Assembly: GCA_903921965.1 (NCBI GenBank)
Contig: CAIXSE010000115.1
Span: forward strand, 1-5,721
Reading direction: 5' to 3'
Source of the DNA: an uncultured Thermoleophilia bacterium
GTDB taxonomy: Bacteria; Actinomycetota; Thermoleophilia; UBA2241
DNA: 5,721 nt
Made by a program: the position numbers and the translations under genes. Positions 1-5,051 of the stretch are shown one piece after another. The first letter of the stretch is position 1. Every line of letters starts with the position of its first letter. Under the pieces are notes generated by a model. It worked only from the letters and a program-made list of their open reading frames with translations, was not told where the DNA came from and searched no databases.

Positions 1-2497
1 CGGCGTCGCGGAGGATCTCCTCGGGGGTCACGAGCGTGACCAGCTCGATGCCCTCGAGGTCGGCGGCGTCGACTTCCTCGCCCCACGCCGGCATCTCGGC
101 ACGCGTGCGGCGGTACATGATCCTGACGCTCTCGGCGCCGAGGCGGATGGCCGTGCGCGCGGCGTCGATGGCAGCGTTGCCGCCGCCGATGACGACCACG
201 TTCCTGCCGACCTCGCCCTTGCCGTCGACGTTGTACTGCTTCAGGAAGGACAGGCCGTCGTACACGCCGGGGCCGTCCTCGCCGGGCACGCCGATGCCCA
301 TGCCCTGCGGGGCGCCGACGGCCACGAACACGGCCTCGTAGCCCTCGTCCTTGAGCTGCTTGAGGGTGAAGTCACGGCCGAGCGCCTTGCCGTACTCGAA
401 GCGCGCGCCCATGGCCTCGATCATCCTGACCTCGCGCTCGAGCTCGTGGCGCGGCAGGCGGTAGGACGGGATGGCCTGGACGAGCATGCCGCCGGCCTTG
501 GGCTCGGCCTCGAACACGACCGGCTTGTAGCCGAGCCGCGCGAGGAAGTACGCGGCCGAGAGGCCGGCCGGGCCCGAGCCCACGATGGCGACCTTGCGGG
601 CGGCGTTCTCGTCGCTCGCGAGGATCTCCGGCAGCTGCGGGTCGTTCTCCTGCTCCACCATGAAGCGCTTGACGTGGCGGATGGCCAGGGCGCCGTCGAG
701 GCTCGCGCGCATGCACTTGCTCTCGCACGGGTGGAAGCAGACGCGGGCGCAGATGCTGGCCAGCGGGTTGCGCTCGCGGTGCAGCTTGAGGGCCTCCTCG
801 TAGCGCTCTTCGCCGACGAGGCTCACGAAGCCGGGGATGTTGACGCTGGCCGGGCACGCGTTGGAGCAGCGCGCCTTGAACATCGTCGAGCAGACGCCGG
901 CCTCGCAGTACTTGTCCTTGATGTGGGCCTCGTACTCGTGGCGGAAGTGGCGGATGGTGCTGAGCACCGGGTTGGCCGCCGTCTGGCCGAGGCCGCAGAG
1001 GGCGGTCTGGCTGATGGTGGTGCCGAGGGCGATGAGGCGCTCGATGTCGCCCTCTTCGCCCTCACCGCGCGTGATGCGCTCGACGATCTCGAGCATGCGC
1101 TTGGTGCCGACGCGGCACGGCGGGCACTTGCCGCAGCTCTCTTCCTGCGTGAACTCGAGGAAGAAGCGGGCGATGTCCACCATGCAGGTGTCCTCGTCCA
1201 TGACGATGATGCCGCCGGAGCCCATGATGGCGCCCAGTTCCTGCAGCGTCGCGTAGTCGACGGGGACGTTGAGGTGCTGCCTGGGGATGCAGCCGCCCGA
1301 CGGACCGCCGAGCTGGGCGGCCTTGTACTCCTTGTCGCCGGGGATGCCGCCGCCGACCTCGAAGATGAGCTCGCCGAGCTGCATGCCGATCGGCACCTCG
1401 ACGAGGCCGGTGTGCCGCACGTTGCCGCCGAGCGCGAACACCTTGGTGCCCTTGCTCTGCTCGGTACCGGTGCTGGCGTACCACGCCGAGCCCTTGAGGA
1501 TGATGGGGGCGATGTTGGCGAACGTCTCGACGTTGTTGAGCACGCTCGGCTTGCCCCAGAGGCCCGAGACCGCCGGGAACGGCGGGCGCGGGCGCGGCTC
1601 GCCGCGGTTGCCCTCGATGGAGGTCATGAGGGCCGTCTCTTCGCCGCACACGAACGCGCCCGAGCCCATGCGGATCTCGAGATCGAAGGCGAAGCCGCTG
1701 CCCATGATGTCGTCGCCGAGCAGGCCGTACTCGCGGGCCTGGCCGAGGGCGTGGTTGAGACGCTCGACGGCCAGCGGGTACTCGGCGCGCACGTACACGT
1801 AGCCCTGGTGCGCGCCGATGGCGTAGGCGCCGATGACCATGCCCTCGATGAGGGAGTGCGGGTCGCCCTCGAGCACCGAGCGGTCCATGAACGCGCCGGG
1901 GTCGCCTTCGTCGGCGTTGCAGAGGATGTACTTGGTGTCGTTGTCCTGGGCCTGGGCGAACTTCCACTTCATGCCGGTGGGGAACCCGGCGCCGCCGCGC
2001 CCGCGCAGACCGCTCGCCAGGACCTCCTCGACGACCTGCTCGGGGGTCATCTCGGTGAGCACCTTGGCCAGCGCCTGGTACCCCTCACGCGCGATGTACT
2101 CGTCGATCTTGAGGGGGTCGATGATGCCGCTGTTGCGGAGGACGATCTTGACCTGGCGGTTGAAGAACGGGATGTCGTCCATCTCCGCCTGGGTGCGGTC
2201 GGTACCCGGGGCGTGGCTCACGAGGCGCTCGACGATGCGGCCCTTGAGCAGGTGCTCCTCGACGATCTCCGGGATGTCCTCGACGTGCACGTTCTGGTAG
2301 AAGACGCCGTCCGGGTAGACGAGCGCGACGGGGCCCTGCACGCAGGGGCCGAGGCAGCCGGTCTCGATGACGCCCACCTCGCCGGCGAGGTCGCGGCCGG
2401 CAAGCTCCTGGCGAGCCGTCTCCGCCACCTCCAGCGCGCCGCACGCGATGCAGCCGCCGCCGGTGCAGATCAGCAGTTGACTTCTCACATCAGCCAT
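1..2497 (-). CDS. nuoF: NuoF/HydB-type NADH:acceptor subunit fused to a GltD/NfnB-type FAD/NAD(P)H oxidoreductase (3' end outside window)
   Basis: An uninterrupted frame of 832 codons runs from ATG at 2497 off the left edge. Residues 1-95 form a thioredoxin-like [2Fe-2S] domain (C11, C16, C48, C52; extra C19). Residues 110-510 are the NuoF core: NADH/FMN glycine motifs GLRGRGGAGFPTG (from 163), NADEGDPGAF (from 194) and CGEETAL (from 284), an SLBB region near 353-420, and the [4Fe-4S] ligands C455/C458/C461 plus C501. Where HydB proteins usually carry ferredoxin domains, this one has a GltD/DPD-type di-cluster domain (C531, C536, C544, C548, C583, C587, C591, C595). An FAD Rossmann site follows (GSGPAG 640-645, E663), then an NAD(P)H site (GGGNAA from 771). 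YRR at 795-797 fits NADPH 2'-phosphate binding. About 150-200 residues should lie outside. Likely cytosolic electron-bifurcating or transhydrogenase subunit. An in-frame TGA three codons upstream fixes the start. The ribosome site is weak (GAAGGG, 13-base spacing). Confidence 0.93.
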   Translation of the reverse strand, partial: MADVRSQLLICTGGGCIACGALEVAETARQELAGRDLAGEVGVIETGCLGPCVQGPVALVYPDGVFYQNVHVEDIPEIVEEHLLKGRIVERLVSHAPGTDRTQAEMDDIPFFNRQVKIVLRNSGIIDPLKIDEYIAREGYQALAKVLTEMTPEQVVEEVLASGLRGRGGAGFPTGMKWKFAQAQDNDTKYILCNADEGDPGAFMDRSVLEGDPHSLIEGMVIGAYAIGAHQGYVYVRAEYPLAVERLNHALGQAREYGLLGDDIMGSGFAFDLEIRMGSGAFVCGEETALMTSIEGNRGEPRPRPPFPAVSGLWGKPSVLNNVETFANIAPIILKGSAWYASTGTEQSKGTKVFALGGNVRHTGLVEVPIGMQLGELIFEVGGGIPGDKEYKAAQLGGPSGGCIPRQHLNVPVDYATLQELGAIMGSGGIIVMDEDTCMVDIARFFLEFTQEESCGKCPPCRVGTKRMLEIVERITRGEGEEGDIERLIALGTTISQTALCGLGQTAANPVLSTIRHFRHEYEAHIKDKYCEAGVCSTMFKARCSNACPASVNIPGFVSLVGEERYEEALKLHRERNPLASICARVCFHPCESKCMRASLDGALAIRHVKRFMVEQENDPQLPEILASDENAARKVAIVGSGPAGLSAAYFLARLGYKPVVFEAEPKAGGMLVQAIPSYRLPRHELEREVRMIEAMGARFEYGKALGRDFTLKQLKDEGYEAVFVAVGAPQGMGIGVPGEDGPGVYDGLSFLKQYNVDGKGEVGRNVVVIGGGNAAIDAARTAIRLGAESVRIMYRRTRAEMPAWGEEVDAADLEGIELVTLVTPEEILRDA

Positions 2498-3476: not shown

Positions 3477-3971
3477 TCAGGTCAGGGCCTCCTGGTAGGC
3501 GACGAGCGCCGGATACTTGCCGGGCAGCTCGCTGCCGCGCACCTCCACATGCGCGTCGCCGTCCTCGAGGTCCACGAGAAAATCGATCTGGGGGTTGGTG
3601 GCGACCATCGTGAGGATGCTGGCCGCCACGTCGCCGAGCGGCGGCCGGTCCACGTTGTCGAGGCCGAGCCAGGCGTGCACCTGCACGCCCCCGAGCCCGG
3701 CCGAGCGGCCCACGCTGAGGCCGCCGCCGGCGTCCTCGGCCGCCTGCCGGAAGAGGCTCAGGCCGAGGCCGGTCTTCTTCGACTCCTTGGTCGTGAAGAA
3801 GGGGTCCAGGGCGGCCTCGGGCTGCACCGGCAGCCCCGGCCCGTCGTCCTGGACGTCGATCACGAGCACGCCTGCGGCGCGGTCGGCGGTGATGCTCGTG
3901 GCGATCACCGTCGCTCCCGCGCGCACGGAGTTCTCGAGGATGTCGAGCAGGTACAGGGAGAGGTCATGCAT
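3477..3971 (-). CDS. Stand-alone GHKL/HATPase_c ATP-binding protein
   Basis: This 164-residue protein is almost entirely a histidine-kinase-type ATP-binding domain. It shows an N box (ILENSVRAGA, 11-20, with N14), a G1 box DDGPG (42-46), an F box DPFFTTK (56-62) and a G2 box KTGLGLS (66-72). It has no dimerisation/phosphoacceptor histidine domain, sensor domain or membrane segment. It is therefore either an anti-sigma-factor/RsbW-like kinase or an ATPase of unknown partner. Residues 105-164 form an extra C-terminal module (around LGDVAASIL and DFLVDLEDGDAHVEV) that I do not recognise. The family is commonly found in [FeFe]-hydrogenase operons, but its function there is not established. Its ATG overlaps the end of the PHP gene by eight bases, with AGGGGG seven bases upstream. 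A 48-base gap with a hairpin follows before the NuoE gene. Confidence 0.88.
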   Translation of the reverse strand: MHDLSLYLLDILENSVRAGATVIATSITADRAAGVLVIDVQDDGPGLPVQPEAALDPFFTTKESKKTGLGLSLFRQAAEDAGGGLSVGRSAGLGGVQVHAWLGLDNVDRPPLGDVAASILTMVATNPQIDFLVDLEDGDAHVEVRGSELPGKYPALVAYQEALT

Positions 3972-4704
3972 CGCCGAGCCCCCTGCCGTCGCGCCCGGCG
4001 AGCGCGAGGGCGAGCTCGTCGAAGCCGGGGCGCTCGCAGCGCACCGCGGTGCGCGCCGCGCCGATGTCGGCCAGGTAGTGGGCGTCGGACGAGTGCACGA
4101 GCGGGAGGCGGTGTGCGCGGTAGGGCTCTTCGTCCTCGGGCGCGACGCCCACGTGGCGCGAGACCTCCACGGCGTCGAAGCCGGCCTCGTCGGGGAAGAA
4201 GCCGAGCTGGGCGATGACGCCGAACCCGCGGCGGTCGATGTGCGCGGCCACGGCCAGGCCGCCGTGCCGGTGGATGAGGGCCACGGCGGCGTCCACGTCG
4301 AGGGTGCTCGCGGTGGCCAGCGCGAGCGGCTCGCGCGCGACCTCGGCACCACCGGCGTCCAGCACCTGCTGCTCGCCGAAGAAAGCCTCGTAGCCGCCGT
4401 CCGCCTCAGGCAGGGTGGCGCCGACCTCGGCGCCGGCCGCCTGTGCGGCCGCGGCGTCGGGGAAGAGCCCCACCACGTGGCACTCCTCGGCCGTGGTGAC
4501 CTCCATCCCGGCGAGCACCGCGAGGCGCTCGCCGGCCGCCAGCTGCACGGCGGCGGCGTTCCTGGCGCTGTTGTGGTCGCAGACGGCGATCATGCCCAGC
4601 CCCTCAGCGAGCGCCTTCTCCACGATCGCGGGCGGCGTCATCTCGCCGTCCGCGCAGGGCGACAGTGCGGTGTGCACGTGCAGGTCTGCGGCGCAGACGT
4701 TCAC
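3964..4704 (-). CDS. PHP-domain metal-dependent phosphoesterase-like protein
   Basis: This 246-residue cytosolic protein has a complete PHP-type metal-binding set: DLHVHT (H9, H11), CDHNS (D43, H44), GMEVTT (E68), ECHVVGLF (H76), AAHIDR (H155) and SSDAH (D207, H209). Retention of all the ligands argues for an active metallo-hydrolase, probably acting on a phosphoester, but the substrate cannot be read from sequence. TrpH-like nucleases and nucleotide phosphoesterases are relatives. The HIDR motif followed by IAQLGFFP (164-171) sets it apart from the general AHP version of the family and fits the subgroup found in hydrogenase-type operons. Start: GTG at 4704 overlaps the TGA of the preceding DRTGG gene (GTGA). 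The first upstream in-frame codon that matters is a stop, so no longer start exists. GAAGGG lies nine bases upstream. The end overlaps the HATPase start. Confidence 0.9.
   Translation of the reverse strand: MNVCAADLHVHTALSPCADGEMTPPAIVEKALAEGLGMIAVCDHNSARNAAAVQLAAGERLAVLAGMEVTTAEECHVVGLFPDAAAAQAAGAEVGATLPEADGGYEAFFGEQQVLDAGGAEVAREPLALATASTLDVDAAVALIHRHGGLAVAAHIDRRGFGVIAQLGFFPDEAGFDAVEVSRHVGVAPEDEEPYRAHRLPLVHSSDAHYLADIGAARTAVRCERPGFDELALALAGRDGRGLGDA
3979..3984 (-). promoter_or_regulatory. Ribosome binding site of the HATPase gene
   Basis: AGGGGG on the minus strand lies seven bases before ATG at 3971, within the last codons of the PHP gene. Confidence 0.55.
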
Positions 4705-5051
4705 GCATGGGATCCCTTCACGCCGAGCCCGTACAGGTGCCCGACCACGTCGAAGGTCTCGTCGGCGGCGACGTAGAGGGCGATGCCCTCGGCCGCGGCC
4801 TTCTCGACCACGTCCGGCTCGGGCCTGCGGCCGCCGGCGAACACCACGGCCGCCAGCTCGGCGTGGCTGGCCACGGCGATCACGTTCAGGTGCACCTGCA
4901 GGGTGACCAGCAGGCCGCCTTCGGGGGCGTGCGCCAGCACGTCGCTCAGCAGGTCGGACGCGTAGCCGCGCGTCACGTCGGCGTCGGTGAGCTGGGCCGC
5001 GGGGGTCAGCAGGTCAAGGTCGAGCTTGGCGGCGATCTCGCTGAGTTTCAT
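4701..5051 (-). CDS. DRTGG-domain protein
   Basis: This 116-residue protein consists of one DRTGG domain, a small alpha/beta domain also found in HPr kinase-associated and phosphotransacetylase-type proteins and thought to have a regulatory or ligand-binding role. Recognisable features are GYASDLLSDVLAHA (29-42), LVTLQVHLNVIAVASHAELA (48-67), a segment reading VVFAGGRRPEPD (69-80), and the end LYVAADETFDVVGHLYGLG (92-110). There is no catalytic motif. Homologues sit in the same position in operons for bifurcating [FeFe] hydrogenases, next to PHP and HATPase genes, so a sensing or signalling role is plausible but unproven. Start: ATG at 5051 overlaps the previous stop (ATGA) with AGGAGG ten bases upstream. 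A GTG in the same frame at 5087 would add twelve residues with no homology and no ribosome site, so I rejected it. The stop overlaps the PHP start. Confidence 0.88.
   Translation of the reverse strand: MKLSEIAAKLDLDLLTPAAQLTDADVTRGYASDLLSDVLAHAPEGGLLVTLQVHLNVIAVASHAELAAVVFAGGRRPEPDVVEKAAAEGIALYVAADETFDVVGHLYGLGVKGSHA

Follow-up and report, generated by a model that had tools for sequence, protein, structure and literature searches.

A HydB-GltD fusion protein in an uncultured Thermoleophilia bacterium: candidate diaphorase of a hydrogenase that may use NADP(H) in place of ferredoxin

What enzyme is served by a polypeptide that joins the FMN-binding core of HydB to a GltD-type module with FAD and NADP(H) sites? 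The question is raised by contig CAIXSE010000115.1 of an uncultured Thermoleophilia bacterium (assembly GCA_903921965.1), of which a stretch of 5721 nucleotides, referred to here as the window, was analysed. On its minus strand an open reading frame of 832 codons from an ATG, open at the left edge of the window, carries both parts in one chain. The sequence-only reading of this DNA had noticed the single frame, the two flavin/dinucleotide sites in one chain and the NuoE-like partner gene next to it (PF01257), and all three have stood. It had taken the product to be a hybrid electron-bifurcating transhydrogenase, and here we arrive at a different enzyme. Judged from its conservation, the fusion is a real and widely shared variant of bifurcating-type HydB, and the enzyme encoded in the window is most likely a hydrogenase of the HydABC type rather than a stand-alone Stn-type transhydrogenase, since HydA genes lie near most of the fused relatives. 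Our preferred reading, to which we give slightly less than an even chance, is that most of the diaphorase half of a HydABC-type [FeFe]-hydrogenase lies in the window together with sensory genes, a StnC-type GltD module being carried on HydB and NADP(H) replacing ferredoxin. The sequences thus read suggest an enzyme balancing H2 against both NADH and NADPH.

A HydB core that continues into a GltD module

The Pfam matches along the fused chain are, in order, PF01257 (residues 7-81), PF01512 (161-330), the SLBB domain PF10531 (354-401), PF10589 (441-525), Fer4_20 PF14691 (528-618) and Pyr_redox_2 PF07992 (635-828), the SLBB match being weak at 24.8 bits against a curated cut-off of 27. Compared with all chains in the PDB, residues 1-542 find HydB of bifurcating hydrogenases at the top (7t2r_B, 784.7 bits; 7q4v_B, 784.5 bits). 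A query across the junction (residues 495-660) found many database proteins of about 1000-1050 residues, and among the best 120 of 7722 matches 118 carry both PF10589 and PF14691. Such proteins go under the database names "NADH-quinone oxidoreductase subunit F", "HndC" and "FAD-dependent oxidoreductase". The nearest full-length relative, P0001, has 1022 residues and is 96% identical over the junction; its AlphaFold model (pLDDT 89.0, pTM 0.85) is confident over most of its length. The chain in the window is about 190 residues short, and its C-terminal cysteine pair (C1007 and C1010 of P0001) therefore falls outside it.

For the gene neighbourhoods we used a sample of 80 genome loci and 24 stretches from relatives of the same class. 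By a scripted count, one continuous alignment crosses the junction at 72 of these loci, 48 from the 80 and all 24 of the class stretches, a few being near-identical (for example L020 and L021). Fused copies at so many loci make a frameshift or an assembly artefact very unlikely, and a frameshift or chimera as the origin of the fusion is rejected; the break between the halves that the sequence-only reading had named as one danger to its proposal did not materialise.

Conservation was counted in an alignment of 58 fused proteins (55 where the N- or C-terminal cysteines are covered). The unusual B2 site of HydB is described with the ligands C438, C476 (or Thr), H525, C531 and C536 (Feng et al., PMC8880783). 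The alignment to HydB chains in the PDB is ungapped and carries this numbering over unchanged, giving C438, T476, H525, C531 and C536 in the window. The four B1 cysteines (C455, C458, C461, C501) and the B2/Zn ligands C438, H525, C531 and C536 are invariant (58/58). Cys occupies position 476 in 30 proteins, Thr in 20 and another residue in eight. Of the N-terminal [2Fe-2S] cysteines, C48 and C52 are kept in 55/55, C11 in 51/55 and C16 in 50/55.

The marks proposed for bifurcating beta-subunits, in T. maritima numbering, are A/E232 and M234 near NADH, F367 near FMN, and GGPSG (Losey et al., PMC7311640). The window has them as GAFMD, F354 and GGPSG, and the fused relatives keep A202 in 57/58, M204 and F354 in 58/58, and all the GGPSG positions in 58/58 save P399 (57/58). 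Five loci of the window's class (L102, L105, L109, L111 and L113) have a second hydrogenase-type cluster near the fused operon. The second, unfused HydB near the fused operon in these loci has non-bifurcating marks (DEGEPGTFKD and no GGPSG), and in L102, L109 and L111, where the copy reaches that far, it also ends without the B2 motif; by its sequence this HydB is a natural control for the marks of the fused one. The sequence-only reading had described a complete NuoF-type part. That part proves to be specifically HydB-like, with bifurcating-type marks, and its relatives lack the C-terminal ferredoxin domain of HydB.

HydB normally continues after the C531/C536 segment into a ferredoxin-like domain, the putative port for ferredoxin, which binds the [4Fe-4S] clusters B3 and B4 (PMC10482914). 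Two CxxCxxCxxxC ferredoxin motifs are present in 27 of 32 unfused HydB rows, the other five being the truncated second HydBs of L014, L015, L016, L019 and L028. None of the 43 complete fused copies contains the motif; all 43 end in RCLRCD or a near variant, and for one of them, P0029, Pfam found no ferredoxin domain beyond Fer4_20 and the N-terminal thioredoxin-like domain. The spacing from C536 to C544, the first cysteine of the GltD module, is exactly seven residues in 58/58 fused proteins and in the window. On the evidence of these alignments, the GltD module is in the position of HydB's two-[4Fe-4S] ferredoxin domain. That the ferredoxin domain had merely moved behind GltD, as the 566-residue model NF009410 hinted, is rejected by the 43 complete copies. 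VIA-align ranges for several HydB/StnB chains reach model residue 1012-1015, which would bring the CLRC segment at the C-terminus to the site of the ferredoxin domain of HydB; these are range ends only and are not used as support.

Operons with two HydB genes were also seen. Those of L014, L015, L016, L019 and L028 combine the fused HydB-GltD and HydA with a second HydB that ends right after the B2/Zn motif, having neither ferredoxin domain nor GltD. In L006, L012 and L036 fused and ferredoxin-type HydB genes are adjacent and therefore not interchangeable, an arrangement compatible with a division of labour.

The GltD half was likewise compared with the PDB. The highest score is that of the Stn-like chain 9bov_A (351 bits), followed by T. 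maritima NfnB (4ylf_B, 307.6), 9n5u_A (302), S. ovata StnC (8oh5_C, 301.5) and GltD proper (2vdc_G, 206), so that the scores alone do not make StnC a clearly closer relative of this half than NfnB. K170 of StnC, the strictly conserved C7 lysine, coordinates a cluster beside an FAD reported to be non-bifurcating, and NfnB has Glu there (PMC10482914). K610 of the fusion aligns with this lysine, is present in the window and is invariant (58/58); Glu occupies the equivalent position in both aligned NfnB chains (4ylf_B, 5jca_L) and in none of the 58 fused proteins. R680, aligned with StnC R239, is also invariant. The C-terminal cysteines C1007 and C1010, in the RCLRCD segment of P0001, are kept in 55/55 and align with the N-terminal cluster helix of NfnB; the module is therefore permuted, as in StnC-type chains. 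The residues of GGG..A.D..R are invariant or nearly so, as are those of YRR (Y and the first R 58/58, the second R 57/58), and together we take them to be an NADP-type motif.

Downstream genes and distribution of the fusion

Because the window stops before the next gene, the loci of relatives were consulted. Closest to the window are the rows P0001, L003 and L001, the last two being actinobacterial bins from lake sediment. In L001, which is 90% identical, the next gene encodes a 590-residue [FeFe]-hydrogenase catalytic subunit (PF02906 and PF02256) with a NuoG-like N-terminal part, closest in the PDB to HydA1 of A. woodii and T. kivui. HydA also lies beside the fused gene in the other nearest complete relatives (L101-L104), and the HydA proteins of L001, L002 and L011 contain no GltD domain. 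With HydA downstream in its nearest complete relatives, and GltD on HydB rather than on a NuoG-like subunit as in Stn, the window no longer looks like the hybrid transhydrogenase first proposed.

Enough downstream sequence is available at 62 of the 72 fused loci; at the other ten the contig ends, in seven directly and in three after the N-terminal part of HydA. HydA follows on the same strand within 2 kb at 38 of the 62 (in L021 with two genes between), and at five more a second NuoE and HydB precede it, so that 43 of the 62 carry a hydrogenase. A formate dehydrogenase follows at eight, a short NuoG-like protein with glutamate synthase (PF01645) at four (L037, L038, L050 and L051), a NuoG-like protein only at one, and no recognised gene at six. 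Formate dehydrogenase and formate transporter were checked with Pfam on examples, and glutamate synthase in all four loci.

Other neighbours of the fused genes are recorded here as separate observations. In L018 a formate/nitrite transporter gene (PF01226; 16676-17551) comes after the formate-dehydrogenase version of the operon, and in L108 one (10496-11527) comes after a fused gene without HydA. In L097 (3-3816) and L092 (3071-10946) a second HydB-GltD gene, about 47-50% identical and from the window's class, is followed by methylene-tetrahydrofolate (THF) reductase genes (PF12225 and PF02219); L092, counted above among the loci without a recognised downstream gene, has a formate dehydrogenase upstream of HydB-GltD. 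These copies possibly belong to an NAD(P)-linked bifurcating methylene-THF reductase or to a formate/methylene-THF complex.

The fused loci, mostly metagenome bins, come from Actinomycetota, Planctomycetota, Verrucomicrobiota, Spirochaetota, Bacteroidota, Acidobacteriota, Atribacterota, Bacillota, Chloroflexota, Thermodesulfobacteriota, Zixibacteria and others. Of 149 genomes from the class of L001, 21 match the entire junction stretch at an identity of at least 46%, and two more match part of it. A quick-search tree built on the NuoF half (85 rows) does not bring the 53 fused rows together in a single clade, and the approximately unbiased (AU) test rejects their monophyly with p 0.0025, the unfused rows being only the closest HydBs, some branches being long, and the group having been chosen after the tree was seen. 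A single origin of the fusion is thus not supported, and on these sequences its gain, loss or exchange probably happened repeatedly.

A putative route to NADP(H) and its alternatives

The FMN core looks bifurcating, the FAD of the GltD module has the look of a plain gateway between two-electron and one-electron transfer that leads to NADP(H), and this gateway stands where HydB has its ferredoxin domain; the simplest reading is therefore that NADP(H) has replaced ferredoxin. Electrons from H2 would pass through the clusters of HydA to B1 and on to FMN, where half of them would leave to NAD+ as hydride. The other, low-potential half would run through the [2Fe-2S] clusters of NuoE and of the N-terminal domain to the B2/Zn junction and from there by the GltD di-cluster and FAD to NADP+. 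The net reaction would be 2 H2 + NAD+ + NADP+ <-> NADH + NADPH + 2 H+, and reversible. With carrier potentials of -280 mV for NADH, -380 mV for NADPH and -500 mV for ferredoxin (Schut et al., PMC9304861), the H2 pressure at balance is computed as about 145 Pa for this NAD/NADP model, about 15 kPa for a ferredoxin enzyme and 3 Pa for an NADH-only enzyme. An intermediate balance near 145 Pa would suit sediments and syntrophic partners; the host of this hydrogenase is probably an anaerobic actinobacterium.

A wider version of the same proposal is also tentative and in our estimate has a somewhat lower probability. The enzyme would be a ferredoxin-independent bifurcating hydrogenase, splitting H2 to NAD+ and NADP+ or forming it from NADH and NADPH, and the same HydB-GltD chain would be a modular NAD/NADP-bifurcating adaptor across many phyla, paired by turns with hydrogenase, formate dehydrogenase, glutamate synthase and probably also methylene-THF reductase.

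Several observations weigh against the NADP(H)-for-ferredoxin reading. The sequence of the window ends before any HydA, and L108, of the same class and 73% identical, has the formate transporter and no HydA downstream. S. ovata StnC scores slightly below T. maritima NfnB in the comparison given above, and the residue at B2 position 476 is neither Cys nor Thr in the eight proteins already mentioned. The content of the B2/Zn site is itself disputed, [2Fe-2S] or zinc (PMC8880783; PMC10482914), and the low-potential route through it is one that we infer. The invariance of the fused sequence could be structural, and by analogy with Stn the GltD module could feed B1. Finally, NF004862, which we take to be the NfnA-type family, exceeds its cut-off in 35 of the 40 genomes that carry the fused gene (control: 3 of 14 genomes with names). 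The supply of NADPH alone therefore gives no clear need for the enzyme, and the idea that it replaces Nfn is not supported.

The alternative that survives best, unlikely as we judge it, is a dual hydrogenase that does not bifurcate: NADH at FMN and NADPH at FAD would share one chain to the H-cluster and simply come to equilibrium with it, and the B2/Zn site would have a structural role only. The lack of a ferredoxin-type domain and the StnC-like lysine beside FAD fit this, as does the zinc that some authors see in the B2/Zn site (PMC10482914, PMC8880783). It sits badly with the bifurcating-type marks of Losey et al., which the fused chain keeps while the non-bifurcating-type HydB of the same loci is without them, and with the N-terminal [2Fe-2S] cysteines kept in most copies.

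Only slightly lower are the chances of a hub for four substrates, at which H2, NAD(H) and NADP(H) would meet and ferredoxin would still dock, on the GltD di-cluster (comparable to its docking close to the clusters of NfnB) or on the 124-residue [2Fe-2S] protein encoded beside the fusion, NADP(H) being an extra port at middle potential. The GltD half does have six cysteines near the junction and another two at its C-terminal end, which in NfnB-type proteins together hold two [4Fe-4S] clusters, and the thioredoxin-like accessory gene belongs to the cassette of the window. That gene, however, was undetected in several fused operons (L004 to L011), the complete fused copies are without the ferredoxin-type domain of HydB, and in Stn the ferredoxin site is assigned to the ferredoxin-like domain of StnB, not to the GltD module (PMC10482914). 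The absence of the HydB ferredoxin-type domain also makes ferredoxin doubtful as the coupling partner that the sequence-only reading had supposed.

That the GltD half has an NfnB-type bifurcating FAD, giving two bifurcation sites per chain in a Stn/Nfn-like transhydrogenase, is improbable. Its homology to NfnB, which outscores S. ovata StnC, the invariant R680 and the description of an NfnB-grafted HdrA in ANME-1 (PMC9012536) are in its favour; they are opposed by the invariant StnC-type ligand K610, where NfnB has Glu, by the Stn-like top match of this half, by the reported non-bifurcating FAD of StnC (PMC10482914) and by the seven proteins of the window, among which Pfam found no NfnA-type domain. 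The Nfn-type bifurcation at FAD expected from the sequence-only reading accordingly lost ground on K610 and on the StnC report. Least probable is a GltD part that works mainly for another reductase, for instance glutamate synthase, NuoF being the diaphorase, since PF01645 genes follow at only four of the 72 loci, whose fused copies are 45-51% identical to P0001 and do not belong to the clade of the window; the glutamate-synthase link, which had been named beforehand as a sign of an unrelated enzyme, thus exists in distant relatives and in none of the window's clade.

If the NADP(H)-for-ferredoxin reading is right, a widespread NADP(H) version would alter the modelled balance of H2, NADH and NADPH in anaerobic sediment and syntrophic bacteria, with a predicted intermediate H2 threshold of about 145 Pa. 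A natural domain swap would also allow the requirements of the FMN core to be told apart from the contribution of the ferredoxin domain, a question of mechanism.

The gene row and its place among known systems

A compact row of seven minus-strand genes fills the window, with the sensor at the right edge and the fusion at the left (Table 1); no Rfam family reached its gathering score within the window. The full-length sensor gene in L001 (5869-7440) combines HATPase, ferredoxin and a partial [FeFe]-hydrogenase domain with PF04060. The pairing with a sensory gene set, which the sequence-only reading had thought worth a second look, is real but not special, because ordinary HydABC operons carry such genes too.

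Table 1 Features of the window (strand and positions in the 5721-nucleotide stretch; residues in the numbering of the fusion)
Feature	Position	Strand	Residues and marks	Basis
HydB(NuoF)-GltD fusion gene	2..2497	-	residues 1-832 of ~1022, 3' end beyond window	ORF (open reading frame) scan, Pfam, PDB, database search
Thioredoxin-like N-terminal domain of fusion	2255..2479	-	7-81; C11/C16/C48/C52	PF01257 and alignment of relatives
NuoF core of fusion, FMN/NADH site	920..2116	-	128-526; DEGDPGAFMD, F354, GGPSG; B1 [4Fe-4S] C455/C458/C461/C501	
C-terminal B2/Zn-site ligands of fusion	890..925	-	H525, C531, C536 (with C438; T476)	alignment
GltD-type di-cluster domain, in position of HydB ferredoxin domain	644..880	-	540-618; C544/C548/C583/C587/C591/C595; StnC-type K610	
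FAD site and first part of NADP(H) site	2..595	-	635-832; GxGxxG 640-645; GGG..A.D..R, YRR 795-797	
Accessory thioredoxin-like [2Fe-2S] protein, 124 aa	2515..2889	-		NCBIfam ferredoxin models far below cut-offs; no Pfam match; kept in class cassette
NuoE/HydC-like [2Fe-2S] subunit, 179 aa	2889..3428	-		PF01257 1.1e-47; HoxE/NuoE models below cut-off
HATPase_c protein, 164 aa, probably regulatory	3477..3971	-		PF02518
PHP-domain protein, 246 aa	3964..4704	-		PF02811, PF13263
116-aa protein, presumably DRTGG-like	4701..5051	-		no Pfam match; kept in cassette of relatives
Sensor with FeS (iron-sulfur) domain PF04060	5048..5719	-	C-terminal part only	Pfam

In the work cited here, bifurcating HydABC-type hydrogenases have ferredoxin as the low-potential partner. 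We found no description of HydB fused to GltD in the open-licence literature, judged mostly from titles, beginnings of abstracts and passages. BfuB is defined by B1-B5 and the InterPro ferredoxin-type domain IPR017896 (Schut et al. 2022, PMC9304861). The fusion has the FMN domain, B1 and the B2 ligands including the conserved His, and a BfuC (NuoE-like) gene is adjacent. It lacks the B3/B4 ferredoxin-type domain, as indicated by the motif count in the 43 complete copies and by Pfam for P0029, and is therefore not filed as a Bfu member; from its sequence it is nevertheless likely to work like one.

The electron-bifurcating HydABC [FeFe]-hydrogenases (HydDB A3) of A. woodii (7q4v), T. kivui (8a6t) and T. 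maritima (7p5h) share with the system described here HydC/NuoE, the HydB core and HydA, the B1 and B2/Zn ligands and the bifurcating-type marks; the fusion differs in having the GltD/FAD/NADP(H) module in place of the C-terminal two-[4Fe-4S] ferredoxin domain of HydB. StnABC/Nfn-Bfu (8oh5, 9bov, 9n5u) also has a HydBC-like core and a GltD module with the C7-type Lys, and a CLxC segment stands at the C-terminal end of the module in 8oh5_C and 9bov_A. There, however, the GltD module belongs to the NuoG-like StnC, and StnB still has a ferredoxin domain (PMC10482914), whereas in the present system HydB carries GltD, with HydA as the commonest third subunit. NfnAB (4ylf, 5jca) shares the NfnB-like GltD fold with two [4Fe-4S] clusters, FAD and NADP(H). 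In the fusion this fold is attached to HydB and has Lys at the proximal cluster where NfnB has Glu, and Pfam found no NfnA among the seven proteins of the window.

Three further systems share single traits. The putative HydDB [FeFe] Group A2, "glutamate synthase-linked", is an [FeFe]-hydrogenase with a GltD-type partner; by the A2 rule GltD/GltA without NuoF is in the protein right after HydA (PMC5037454), whereas in the relatives of the window GltD and NuoF are in one chain before HydA. ANME-1 likewise has a bifurcating protein with a GltD/NfnB module inserted in its ferredoxin domain (PMC9012536), but the host protein is HdrA and not HydB, and the system is archaeal and has no hydrogenase. 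The non-bifurcating NADH-dependent HydABC of S. wolfei and S. aciditrophicus (PMC7311640) shares HydA and the NuoF/NuoE-like subunits; it is without the bifurcating marks and without the GltD module, and HydB of this type occurs in the same loci as the fused one.

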